A DNA stretch of 64,000 nt from Thermodesulfobacteriota bacterium (GTDB lineage: Bacteria; Desulfobacterota; Syntrophorhabdia; Syntrophorhabdales; JANXAF01). Positions 6,616 to 32,348 of the stretch are shown here, in pieces (the stretch's first letter is position 1; every line of letters starts with the position of its first letter). The DNA lies in the NCBI GenBank assembly GCA_025062045.1, contig JANXAF010000001.1, forward strand, positions 62,001 through 126,000. The letters are read 5' to 3'. Both the position numbers and the translations under genes were made by a program. The notes under the pieces were generated by a model that worked only from the letters and a program-made list of their open reading frames with translations, ran no database searches and was not told the DNA's origin.

Positions 6616-9036
6616 TCATTCTTCTGAAACCTTTGCAACCCCCTTAATTTTTTCATCCTCGTTCACTTTTAAAAGCTTGACCCCAATCCTTCCCCTTTTA
6701 GTCACAGGAACGTCTCTAACTCTGAACCTGGCAGTTCTTCCCTTGTCTGTAATTAGAATGACATCGCAAGAAGGTGTGACATTTTTCACACATATAACGA
6801 AACCATTTTTGTCAGTCACTTTCACATTTTTTAAACCGTATCCCCCTCTGGCCTGTGGCCTATACTCTTTTGCCTCCACACATTTTCCAAAACCCTTCTC
6901 AGTGACTGTGAAAATAAAACTTTCGTCCTTTACCGAGTCACAGGAACACACCTCATCACCTTCTTTGAGTTTTATGCACTTTACTCCGTATGAAGCTCTT
7001 CCGCTGATTCTTATATTTTCCTCCTTTATCCTGATACACATCCCTTTTTTCGTTGCGATGAAGATGTCAGATTTCCCATCAGTTTCGATAACGTTTACAA
7101 GTCTGTCATCTTTGGGAATGTTCATAACTTTAGTTCCCTTAAGCCTTGCAAAAGAAAGATCCGAAACCTTTAACCTCTTTACGTATCCTTTTTTTGTCAC
7201 AAAAAACAGGAATCTTCTTTCATTCGACTCAGAAACAGGTGTTACGGCAACTATCTCTTCTCCCTGGCCGATATTTAAAAGGCTCGCCACCGGTTTACCC
7301 TTGGCATTAAGTGGTGCCTCTGGGATTGTGTAAACTTTTAGTCCGTAAACTTTTCCTGAATTAGTAAAGAAGAGTACGTAAGAGTGGGTCGATGCGATGT
7401 ATATATGCTCTACTACGTCTTCCTCCCTCACCGCTATACCTATTTTGCCCTTCCCTCCCCTAGACTGGTGTTTATACTGGTCGAGCGGGGTTCTTTTTAT
7501 GTAACCCTTCTGGGTTATTGTTACGACAACCTCTTCCTCCTTTATCATGTCCTCGGCAGATATCTCTGGTAACTCATCGACTATTTCCGTCATCCTATGG
7601 TCCCCGTATTTTTCCTTTATCTCCAACAGTTCTTCTTTGATTATGTTAAGTATTTTTCTCTCATCATTTAATATGGATGTTAGTCTTTGAATCTCTACAC
7701 TCGTTTCGGTATAGTCTTTAAAGATCTTTTCCCGCTCAAGGGAGGTAAGTCTTTGAAGTCGCATCTCAAGGATAGTTTGTGTCTGTTTTTCTGAAAGTCC
7801 GTATGCCTTGATTAGTCCTTCTTTCGCCTCTTGAACGCTTTTTGATCTTTTAATTAGCGCAATTACCTCATCTATGTGTGAAAGGGCGACCTTTAACCCC
7901 TCAAGTATGTGTAGCTTCTCTTTGGCTCTGTTTAACTCGAATGTAGTTCTCCTTTTAACTATCTCCTTTCTAAACTGGATGAATTCCTCCATGAGCGCTT
8001 TGAAGTTTAGAGTCTTGGGCTCATTGTTCTTTATCGTAAGAAAGGTTATTCCGAATGTAGTTTGGAGAGAAGTGTGTTTATAGAGCTTATTTAAAATAGG
8101 TGTTGGATTTTCGCCTCGTTTAAGCTCGATTACGATCCTCATTCCTTCTTTGCTAGACTCGTCCCTAATGCCTGAGATACCATCAATCTTTCGCGCGTTC
8201 ACAAGCTCAACAATATCTTCGATCAGTCTCGCCTTATTTTCCTGATAGGGAATCTCGGTTATGACGATCGAAGTTCTTCCATCTTTCTTGCTTTGCTCTA
8301 TATGGGCTCGAGCCCTTAAAACTATATGACCTTTTCCCGTCTCGTAAGCCTCACGGATGTTTCGTTTTCCATATATTATTCCCCTCGTCGGAAAATCAGG
8401 CCCGGGTACTATTTTCAAAATCTCATCGATCGTCATATCAGGGTTGTCGATCAACTTAACAAGCGCATCGACCACTTCCCTCAAGTTATGAGGAGGGATG
8501 TTAGTTGCCATTCCAACAGCGATACCTGAAGAACCGTTTATGAGGAGATTCGGTATCCTTGAAGGAAGAACTTCAGGTTCCATAAGCGACTCATCGTAGT
8601 TCGGTCTAAAATCGACAGTATCTTTCTCGATGTCCTTTAGGAGCTCCTCTGACAACCTAGAGAGCCTAATTTCCGTGTACCTCATGGCAGCAGGCTCGTC
8701 GCCGTCTATAGAGCCAAAATTCCCCTGCCCATCTATGAGGGGGTACCGAAGTGAAAAATCTTGAACCATCCTCGCTATTGCATCGTAGACGGCCTGGTCT
8801 CCGTGGGGATGGTATTTACCTATCACATCACCTACAACCCTTGCCGATTTTTTGTAAGGTTTATCATGGAAATTTCCAAGCTCATACATGGCGTAAAGTA
8901 TCCTTCGATGAACCGGTTTTAGCCCGTCTCTTACGTCAGGAAGAGCCCTTCCGATGATCGTGCTCATGGCATAATCGAGGTAAGATCTTTTCATTTCCTC
9001 TTCTATAGGAACGACAACAACGTTTTCTTTAAGCAA
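6616..9036 (-). CDS. gyrA: DNA gyrase subunit A
   Basis: GyrA is the breakage-reunion subunit of the type II topoisomerase that supercoils DNA with GyrB. The 806-residue protein has the N-terminal winged-helix/tower region with catalytic Tyr120 in AAMRYTE, followed by a C-terminal beta-pinwheel. A GyrA-box-like heptapeptide (QSRGGKG) near residue 535 favours GyrA over ParC. The start is TTG at 9034-9036 with a strong SD (GGAGGG, 9042-9047, 5-nt spacing). At the quinolone-determining position equivalent to E. coli Ser83 the residue is Gln81 (HGDQAVYDA), while Asp85 is kept. gyrB is not in the window. gpsA follows 13 nt downstream. Confidence 0.97.
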
Positions 9037-29189: not shown

Positions 29190-30189
29190 TCTCACACAGA
29201 AAGAACTCGAAGATCTTCTCGTTAGATGCAAAAATGAGAAATACAGGGCAAAACAGCTCTTGAGATGGGTTTATAATAAAGGCATTTTCGATTTTGACTC
29301 CATGACAGACATATCTAAGAATCTAAGATCGTTATTCCGGGAAATGTTCTTTTTCGATTTTATGGAGCCAGAAAGTATAGAGAAGTCAAAGGACGGGTCA
29401 ACAAAATTTGCTTTCAGAACCAAAGATGGCCACATCGTTGAGACGGTGCTCATGCCGGAAGTTAAAAGGACGACGCTTTGTGTATCGACGCAGATAGGTT
29501 GCAAGATGGGGTGTAAGTTCTGTGTCACAGGCCAGGTCGGCTTTATAAGGAATCTAAGGACTTCGGAAATAATCTCCCAAATTATGACTGTAAGAAGACT
29601 TATTTCTGTACAAATAACAAACGTGGTTCTCATGGGGATGGGAGAACCCCTAGACAACCTCGAAAACGTCAAAAAGGCTATAGAGATAATGGGAAACCCG
29701 TACGGAATGAATCTGTCAAAAAGAAAGATCACCCTCTCGACAGTTGGCCTTCTTGACGGCTTAAAACATATCCCACCTCAGTCCTGTGTTATCGCAATAT
29801 CGCTTAATGCAGCGGATGAAGAAAAAAGGACTTACCTTATGCCCATAAATAGAGTCTATCCTCTCACCGAAATTTTAAATTTCGCAAAAAACTTGAAGCT
29901 AAAAAAAAGGGAGAGGATAACTTTCGAATACGTTCTCATAAAGGACATTAACGATTCAAAAGAAGACGCTGAGAAACTTGCAGATATACTGTCAGGTATC
30001 AAGTGTAAGATAAATCTGATCCCCTATAATGAATCGCCATACCTGCCTTTTAAGTCCCCAAGAGAAAACGATGTTTACGCGTTTCAGAGGATCCTTCTAA
30101 AAAACAGATACACGGCAACAGTAAGAAAATCAAAAGGTCAAGATGTTTTTGCTGCCTGCGGTCAACTCGGGTCTCGATACCTTATGTGA
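29173..30189 (+). CDS. rlmN: 23S rRNA (adenine2503-C2) methyltransferase
   Basis: RlmN is a radical SAM enzyme that methylates C2 of A2503 in 23S rRNA (and A37 of some tRNAs). The 338-residue protein has the cluster-binding CKMGCKFC with Cys110, Cys114 and Cys117, the RlmN signature TQIGCKMGCKFCVTGQ, NVVLMGMGEPLDN, and a C-terminal Cys in FAACGQL that acts as the methyl-carrying residue in the family. It overlaps recD2 by 17 nt and converges on hflX with a 28-nt overlap. Confidence 0.97.
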   Translation: MESFFDLTQKELEDLLVRCKNEKYRAKQLLRWVYNKGIFDFDSMTDISKNLRSLFREMFFFDFMEPESIEKSKDGSTKFAFRTKDGHIVETVLMPEVKRTTLCVSTQIGCKMGCKFCVTGQVGFIRNLRTSEIISQIMTVRRLISVQITNVVLMGMGEPLDNLENVKKAIEIMGNPYGMNLSKRKITLSTVGLLDGLKHIPPQSCVIAISLNAADEEKRTYLMPINRVYPLTEILNFAKNLKLKKRERITFEYVLIKDINDSKEDAEKLADILSGIKCKINLIPYNESPYLPFKSPRENDVYAFQRILLKNRYTATVRKSKGQDVFAACGQLGSRYLM

Positions 30190-31829
30190 TGATTTTCGTT
30201 TAAAAGGAGCTCTTCTATTCTCTTAACAAGAATGTCAATATTCGTCTGGTCCATGCAAGAAATTGAAATGGCATTGTACCTTTTTTCCATGTTTTTCAAA
30301 TAGTCTTTATGCAGGTCTGAAAGTTTATCTATCTTGTTAAAGACGATCAGTCTTTTCTTTTCTTTTAGTCCCAACCTCTCCAAGATCTTCTCCACAGAAC
30401 TAATCTTCTCTTCCACATCCTCGTCCGATATGTCCACAAGGTGGATAAGTAGATCCGAGTACTTGAGTTCTTCAAATGTAGAGAGAAAGGCATCGAAGAG
30501 TGTTTCGGGAAGGTTGCGAATAAGCCCCACAGTATCGCTTATTATGATATTTTTCCTCTCAGGGTACTTTACTGTTCTCGTTGTGGGTGAGAGTGTGCTG
30601 AAAGGCCTTCGGTCCACATCTACTTTACTTTTTGTTAAAAGGTTAAGAAGACTCGATTTTCCAGAATTAGCATAGCCCACTATAGAAATGGAAGGTATCG
30701 GAGATTCCATCCTCCTTACCCTTTTAGTCTCTCTTACCCTCTTTATCTCCTCCAACTTCCTCTCCAGTAAAACTATTCTGTCCCTTATCCTTCTTCTGTC
30801 GATTTCGAGTTTTGTTTCGCCAGGACCTCTACCACCTATACCACCTGTGAGTCTCGAAAAAGCCGTGTTTTTTTCTGAAAGCCTAGGAAAGATATACCTT
30901 AGCTGGGCTAGCTCCACTTGAATCTTTGCCTCTTTTGTTTTCGCCTTTGTTGCGAAAATATCAAGGATAAGCTGATTTCTGTCGATTACCTTAAGGTCAG
31001 TCAGCGCAGATATATTCTTTAGCTGGACAGGGCTTAGCTCCTCATCGAATACAAGCATATCCGCGCCCATGCTTGTAGATCTCATAATGATCTCTTCCAT
31101 TTTTCCCTTTCCGACGATATACCCAGGGTGAATCTTTCTAGGCTTCTGGATGAAAGTGTCAAGAACTGTGAGTCCAGCCGCTTCGCATAAAGATTTCATC
31201 TCACTTAGATGCTCTTCAATGTCCTTTTTGAACTTGGGGATGGCGATGGAAACAATAACGCACGTTTCTAGTTGCGTTCTTACCGGTCTTGCAACACCTT
31301 CGGCTTTTAGAAATTCGTTTTCAAGTTCAGTTATAAATTCAAGAAAATCTAGCTCTATCTCGTCTTGGGGTGATGGACCTATAAAATCGAAAATCTTTCC
31401 TGTCTTCGCGTTTGGAATCAGATATCCCGCATGAAGTATTTCGCTTTCACTCCCCTTTTTCTCAGTGATACAAACAACAAGATCGAGTCTTTCCAAGGCG
31501 AGAGTGTTTAGGTCTTCCTTTGAAAGGAGCTCTCCGTCTAAGTGAGTGTGTATAAACCGGAGACCGCTAAATTTTGACCTCGTTCCTGTTTCTTTTACGA
31601 TTTCGGGAATCCTTATTCCCCTCCTTTCTCCTACTATGACACGCTCAATATTCCCCCTTCTGTTTACGAGGATTCCCACTTCCCTTTCTATCTCTTTCGA
31701 AATTCCAAGCATCGTTTTTGCTACATCCGGACTGACGATAGAGCGTGGATCTATTCTTTTTTTGTAAATCTTGATCAGTCTCCGTTTTATTCTTGGATTA
31801 AGACCGGCCGTATTTCCGTAGATTTCTAT
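30162..31829 (-). CDS. hflX: GTPase HflX, apparent AUA start codon
   Basis: HflX is a ribosome-associated GTPase that rescues or splits stalled 70S/50S particles. The GTPase core has G1 GYANSGKSSLLN, G3 DTVGL and G4 NKID. From the first ATG (31712) the protein has 516 residues, but the same frame is open for 39 more codons and encodes what I recognise as the normal N-terminus of longer HflX proteins (EIYGNTAGLNPRIKRRL, then RIDPRSIVSPDVAKT). That stretch has no ATG, GTG or TTG. An ATA at 31829-31827 is 6 nt after a perfect GGAGGG (31841-31836), itself right after the in-frame TAG of the upstream nusG paralogue. I therefore annotate 555 residues starting at ATA. Alternatives are a sequencing error or initiation at ATG 31712. 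Confidence 0.85.
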   Translation of the reverse strand: MEIYGNTAGLNPRIKRRLIKIYKKRIDPRSIVSPDVAKTMLGISKEIEREVGILVNRRGNIERVIVGERRGIRIPEIVKETGTRSKFSGLRFIHTHLDGELLSKEDLNTLALERLDLVVCITEKKGSESEILHAGYLIPNAKTGKIFDFIGPSPQDEIELDFLEFITELENEFLKAEGVARPVRTQLETCVIVSIAIPKFKKDIEEHLSEMKSLCEAAGLTVLDTFIQKPRKIHPGYIVGKGKMEEIIMRSTSMGADMLVFDEELSPVQLKNISALTDLKVIDRNQLILDIFATKAKTKEAKIQVELAQLRYIFPRLSEKNTAFSRLTGGIGGRGPGETKLEIDRRRIRDRIVLLERKLEEIKRVRETKRVRRMESPIPSISIVGYANSGKSSLLNLLTKSKVDVDRRPFSTLSPTTRTVKYPERKNIIISDTVGLIRNLPETLFDAFLSTFEELKYSDLLIHLVDISDEDVEEKISSVEKILERLGLKEKKRLIVFNKIDKLSDLHKDYLKNMEKRYNAISISCMDQTNIDILVKRIEELLLNENHHIRYRDPS

Positions 31830-31841
31830 AAGAGACCCTCC
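31827..31841 (-). promoter_or_regulatory. Shine-Dalgarno and non-AUG start of hflX
   Basis: Minus strand GGAGGG (31841-31836), 6-nt spacer TCTCTT, then ATA GAA ATC. The SD-to-codon distance is ideal and no ATG, GTG or TTG is present between the preceding TAG (31844-31842) and codon 40. Confidence 0.6.
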
Positions 31842-32348
31842 CTACGATCCACTAGATCCGGTGTATGGAGTAATAAGTTCTCTGTGGATTATCATTCTGG
31901 CGTAGTAATTTAGACCTTCCAAAAGTATTGAGACTCTCTCTGCGGGTTTAAGTTCTTTCTCGAAGATACCAACTATGCCTTTGAATGGACCCTCAGTTAT
32001 TATCACCCTATCTCCAGAGTTTATAGGTCTCCTTTCTACTTCTGCAATCCCGTTTTTCAATCTCCTCTTTATAAACTCGATTACATTCTCTTCAACTGGC
32101 ACTATTTTATTCCCAAACCGGACCACATCTTTGACACCTCTCGTGTATTTGACTTTCCTATAATCGGAAATGGAAAAAAACCGTACAAATATATAACCGG
32201 GAAACATCTCTTCGATCACTTCCTTTATCGTCCCATCCTTCAACTTTCTGTACCTAATTTTAGGGGCCAAAACTTCAAATCCGCCATTTTCTAAGTTTCT
32301 TTTAGCCCTTTCCTCGTTCTTAGGCTTCGTCCTCACAACAAACCACAT
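31842..32348 (-). CDS. NusG paralogue (RfaH-like transcription antiterminator)
   Basis: A 168-residue NusG-family protein: N-terminal NGN domain beginning MWFVVRTKPKNEERAKRNLE and including EEMFPGYIFVRF, then a KOW motif (NSGDRVIITEGPFKGIVGIF). The MWFVVRTKP start and the divergent NGN core match RfaH/UpxY-type specialised paralogues rather than housekeeping NusG, which would sit with secE and rplK. Such factors bind RNA polymerase and suppress pausing in specific long operons; no target can be named. hflX follows immediately in the same frame after the stop. Its ATG lacks an SD and lies about 8 nt from the predicted transcription start. Confidence 0.83.
   Translation of the reverse strand: MWFVVRTKPKNEERAKRNLENGGFEVLAPKIRYRKLKDGTIKEVIEEMFPGYIFVRFFSISDYRKVKYTRGVKDVVRFGNKIVPVEENVIEFIKRRLKNGIAEVERRPINSGDRVIITEGPFKGIVGIFEKELKPAERVSILLEGLNYYARMIIHRELITPYTGSSGS

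Follow-up and report, generated by a model that had tools for sequence, protein, structure and literature searches.

In the window, the whole 64,000-nucleotide stretch of DNA analyzed here, the gene for HflX is close to certain to begin at an AUA codon, judged from sequence comparison, and this start codon has very probably been retained by selection. Relatives throughout its order and in most of its phylum begin hflX at AUA, AUU or AUC, as is the case for infC, the gene for IF3. This parallel suggests that the amount of HflX depends in part on that of IF3.

Read on the minus strand from 31844 to 31827, the start region consists of TAG (31844-31842), GGAGGG (31841-31836), TCTCTT (31835-31830) and ATA (31829-31827), and the open frame from this ATA runs to 30162. 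The original prediction, that the first 39 codons contain no ATG, GTG or TTG and that the TAG of the preceding gene lies in the same frame as the ATA with 12 nt between them, was borne out by direct reading; codon 40 is ATG. The encoded protein is HflX, matching TIGR03156 with 411.2 bits, above the cut-off of 216.75 for the HflX GTPase, and the match to the E. coli-type model PRK11058 begins only at residue 192 of the 559-residue frame. The features of the region are listed below, with ATH (AUH in RNA) standing for ATA, ATT or ATC, and canonical codons being ATG, GTG and TTG.

31827 to 31829, minus strand: ATA, the start codon of hflX (all 42 order loci read have ATH at the aligned position; a single-codon Ile column).
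31836 to 31841, minus strand: Shine-Dalgarno sequence GGAGGG, whose GGAGG ends 7 nt before the ATA (from the sequence and from scores relative to coding positions).
30162 to 31829, minus strand: hflX coding sequence as read from the ATA, 555 codons plus stop.
31710 to 31712, minus strand: ATG (Met40), the first in-frame canonical codon, judged internal and lying within predicted helix 34-47.
31842 to 32348, minus strand: NusG/RfaH-type gene with its stop codon TAG 12 nt before the hflX ATA.

Rfam yielded no matches in the window, and ARAGORN found no tRNA there. A special RNA structure at the hflX start was considered and discarded: the 85 nt folded gave a z-score of 0.88, and 165 of 200 shuffles folded at least as well. 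The uORFC-6-1 motif upstream of hflX was likewise set aside, being described as a leader element mostly of Bacillales (PMC8632094) and a different thing.

The order was sampled with 46 genomes including the source genome (1.76 Mb in 29 contigs), and the 5' end of hflX was read in 42 of them; G005, G007, G027 and G045, in which no hflX match spanned the N-terminus, were left out of the counts. The nearest relatives by hflX were the metagenome-assembled genomes Deltaproteobacteria isolate SKW240 (72% identity) and an uncultured bacterium (70%), together with UBA4796, Syntrophorhabdus sp. PtaB.Bin027 and two Syntrophorhabdaceae. These six records coincide with genomes already in the order set and were counted once. 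A conserved G-N-(T/I/L) motif anchored the alignment, the start being the codon four codons before it. This codon was ATH in all of the first 40 loci (38 ATA, 1 ATC and 1 ATT) and ATA in two loci read later, bringing the totals to 42 of 42 for ATH and 40 of 42 for ATA. Owing to the relatedness of the order genomes, these counts do not represent independent trials, but the genes have diverged at their other third positions. The comparison of codon 1 in orthologues, proposed with the original prediction as a check, thus backed AUA as the start of hflX.

From the upstream stop to the conserved motif, 35 of 40 order loci had no in-frame ATG, GTG or TTG. Of the order ATH codons, 0.45 were preceded by a Shine-Dalgarno run of 5 nt or longer, compared with 0.05 at coding positions, and 0.78 by a run of at least 4 nt, compared with 0.21; the run was only 3 nt long in 9 of 40 loci, which counts against the assignment. 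The order hflX genes therefore show what marks a conserved AUH-start class: no available canonical start, conservation of the codon and Shine-Dalgarno spacing. In two loci of one genus (L009 and L268), an ATG stands two codons upstream of the conserved AUA, 1 nt after the Shine-Dalgarno core. This ATG crowds the Shine-Dalgarno sequence; its presence counts against the AUA reading at these two loci, where the start is possibly in transition.

Seventy further hflX starts were taken from other families of the phylum in two sets (10 and 60), mainly one per family; in the source pool, hflX was matched in 265 of 297 genomes. They comprised 53 ATA, ATT or ATC codons, 2 ACG codons and 15 ATG, GTG or TTG codons. 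Position -5 to the motif, the main start column, had ATH in 51 loci and a canonical codon in 7. Each of the remaining positions from -1 to -12 had ATH in 0 to 3 loci, except for position -2, which is rich in Ile (29 loci). Since canonical codons replace ATH at position -5, this position is the start column. No canonical codon was present in frame before the motif in 44 of the 70 loci. Shine-Dalgarno runs of at least 5 and at least 4 nt preceded 0.71 and 0.98 of the phylum ATH codons, respectively, compared with 0.07 and 0.23 at coding positions. Outside the order, the codons at position -5 (ATC 22, ATT 16 and ATA 13) roughly matched ordinary Ile usage (ATC 335, ATT 176 and ATA 125), and this mix speaks against selection for one particular triplet there. 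In two loci of one family (L070 and L087, family f16), a Shine-Dalgarno sequence precedes an ACG codon at which hflX apparently starts.

Beyond the phylum, hflX started at ATG in 11 and at GTG in 1 of the loci examined, 11 from Clostridium and one from Leptotrichiaceae, and E. coli hflX starts at TTG. Within the loci covered here, an AUH start of hflX is thus a trait of this phylum. When read by eye in the same Clostridium and Leptotrichiaceae genomes, infC (11 found) started at ATT in 9, at ATA in 1 and was unclear in 1. Clostridium infC thus retains an AUH start, whereas Clostridium hflX does not.

The original prediction had invoked infC as a gene with a comparable start, and this comparison held because, in the genomes of the order, infC too starts with AUA. 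Within the order, infC was matched in 43 of 46 genomes, 30 loci were fetched, and starts were assigned by Shine-Dalgarno position. All 30 assigned starts were ATA, 31 of 31 with the source genome included. In the latter, infC lies on the minus strand at 8311 (L267, contig C3) and reads GGAGGTGA-AGCT-ATA, the first canonical codon being 31 codons downstream. Across the phylum, starts were assigned in 49 of 59 infC loci: ATA 29, ATC 12, CTG 3, ATT 2, ACG 1, ATG 1 and GTG 1, where the CTG and ACG assignments follow from Shine-Dalgarno position alone. The CTG starts were in L187, L220 and L224, from three other families. The control GTPase gene der had a canonical codon available in 29 of 29 order loci read (30 were sought; L243 was unread). 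In a scan of 424 kb of the source genome with 340 called genes, a loose rule gave ATH as the best-scoring start for 34 genes. Inspected by eye, only hflX and infC combined a good Shine-Dalgarno sequence with an ATH codon that preceded all canonical codons and had no plausible canonical start close to it. At the level of sequence, these comparisons demonstrate the AUA start of hflX, its conservation, the codon class that it has in common with infC and its rarity in the genome sample.

The initiator tRNA would still insert formyl-methionine at the near-cognate AUA start. We propose that hflX would be translated from its AUA, positioned by the Shine-Dalgarno sequence, and that this weak codon would be retained by selection as a throttle. 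IF3 makes complexes on non-canonical codons dissociate more and blocks the rejoining of 30S to 50S subunits (PMC8266586, PMC9067457), and HflX splits stalled ribosomes under stress (PMC9067457). Because IF3 rejects non-AUG initiation complexes, HflX output should follow IF3 scarcity: HflX would be scarce when IF3 is plentiful on 30S subunits, and more of it would be made when free IF3 is scarce. HflX would then be under the same feedback that infC exerts on itself. The difference is that infC is controlled by its own product, and any control of hflX would, by analogy, be exerted by IF3 in trans. We infer a low output, IF3 sensitivity and a physiological purpose for the hflX AUA. Taken with the published work on IF3, HflX and S. 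aureus starts, IF3-limited synthesis would be the most economical reading, and probably a better one than autoregulation by HflX. We put IF3-dependent control of HflX at an even chance. An IF3-controlled pair of infC and hflX in most of the phylum, in which loss of free IF3 raises both products, falls just short of that. A link to IF3 would not be obligatory, because Clostridium combines ATG or GTG starts of hflX with mostly ATT starts of infC, and 15 of 70 phylum hflX genes have canonical starts.

Alternatively, the AUA start may only keep HflX scarce, without control by IF3, and its level may change through transcription or because its synthesis is coupled to that of the upstream gene. Near-cognate starts generally reduce output (PMC13009471), a NusG-like gene lies close upstream in many loci, and Clostridium has infC with ATT alongside hflX with ATG. 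Codon identities in infC and hflX also fail to track each other across the phylum (infC ATA occurs with hflX ATT in 8, ATC in 7 and ATA in 6 genomes). Both genomes with a canonical infC (G072 and G287; n = 2) also have hflX with ATG. Scarcity alone appears insufficient, however: a weak Shine-Dalgarno sequence or a GTG or TTG start would equally reduce output, and an AUH codon is kept in hflX alongside that of infC and in almost no other of the 340 sampled genes. We regard the scarcity explanation as a substantial possibility, somewhat below the even mark.

Regulation by IF3, the reading that we prefer, can be set beside known near-cognate starts. Like hflX, infC (AUU/AUA) is a translation factor gene with a long-conserved AUH start and a Shine-Dalgarno sequence; it starts at AUA in S. 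aureus (PMC13009471), and its AUU start in E. coli controls translation (PMC1780047). Near-cognate starts with reduced output are also found in S. aureus ccpN (AUA) and cvfC1 (AUU), where they are conserved (PMC13009471), and outside infC in E. coli pcnB (AUU) (PMC1780047). Reporters in S. aureus with other non-canonical starts gave approximately 10 to 30% of the AUG output (PMC13009471). The products of ccpN, cvfC1 and pcnB are not ribosome-splitting factors, unlike that of hflX. Conservation of the ccpN and cvfC1 starts is described within Staphylococci or to B. subtilis, whereas that of hflX extends across most of a phylum. E. coli hflX belongs to the orthologous family and likewise has a non-AUG start, but its TTG is an ordinary alternative start codon.

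If the conserved ATA were an ordinary Ile codon, synthesis would start at Met40, or the region would be reached by readthrough or reinitiation from upstream. The ATH proportions in the wider phylum do resemble Ile codon use, and in the window the stop of the preceding gene shares the frame of the ATA. Ile codons within the order behave differently, however. Among 30 full-length hflX genes, 19 columns were at least 90% Ile, and codon 1, ATA in 30 of 30, was the sole single-codon column; in the other 18, the commonest codon made up a fraction of 0.38 to 0.67. Over the first 120 codons of 40 order loci, Ile was encoded by ATC 229, ATA 160 and ATT 106 times. Many loci have a stop close upstream and a frame without a canonical codon, and canonical codons substitute for ATH in the same column. 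Moreover, Met40 lies within a conserved, folded domain. When the window was compared with three relatives, codons 2 to 39 differed mostly at third positions (9, 4 and 21 at the first, second and third positions for the nearest). Across 13 HflX sequences, some of them from Clostridium, G5 and L18 never varied and N6 was nearly invariant. The AlphaFold2 model of HflX (mean pLDDT 76.2, pTM 0.53; residues 1-50 modelled with confidence, at block means of 78 to 92) has a strand at residues 3-5 and helices at 12-22 and 34-47. The last helix spans Met40, so a start at this residue would, in the model, cut into the helix. An ordinary Ile codon is therefore very unlikely.

The original prediction also raised the possibility that readthrough of the TAG gives an antiterminator-HflX fusion, and this part of it did not hold. 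The protein encoded upstream of hflX matches NusG (PF02357), with RfaH as the best, sub-threshold equivalog. In 39 order loci with a same-strand open reading frame of at least 60 residues close upstream, sorted by pattern with two checked against Pfam, a NusG-like C-terminus preceded hflX in 29, an RlmN-like one in 4 and others in 6. The window stop is in frame with the ATA, but the gap was a multiple of three in only 6 of the 29 NusG-like pairs, as expected by chance, and gap lengths in the order loci varied between -4 and 256 nt. Of the two nearest relatives, one has TAA in place of the TAG, and in the second the upstream gene ends in a different frame. In addition, the gene preceding hflX is of another type in 10 of 39 order loci. 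With neither frame relation nor gap conserved, readthrough is not a conserved device, and we consider the fusion extremely improbable. Ordinary operon coupling of the NusG-like gene and hflX is possible. Finally, although the source is an assembly, a misreading of ATG as ATA in sequencing or assembly has a negligible probability and is rejected because the identical triplet is conserved across the order, in 40 of 42 genomes.

To our knowledge, a start at AUU, AUA or AUC has been established for only a few bacterial genes. Text searches of the literature for hflX together with start codon, AUU or non-AUG wordings returned no report of such a start among the matches listed. One relevant survey outside their coverage, reportedly an arXiv study of genes preferring non-AUG starts by Gvozdjak and Samanta from 2020, may include hflX.

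Gene callers restricted to ATG, GTG and TTG would misplace the N-terminus of HflX. Beyond annotation, this AUH start suggests that IF3 and ribosome rescue are directly linked. If the proposal is true, IF3, which holds subunits apart, and HflX, the splitter of stalled ribosomes, would share one class of IF3-rejected start codons in most of the phylum, and HflX would be the trans target of a ribosome-homeostasis circuit based on the start codon.
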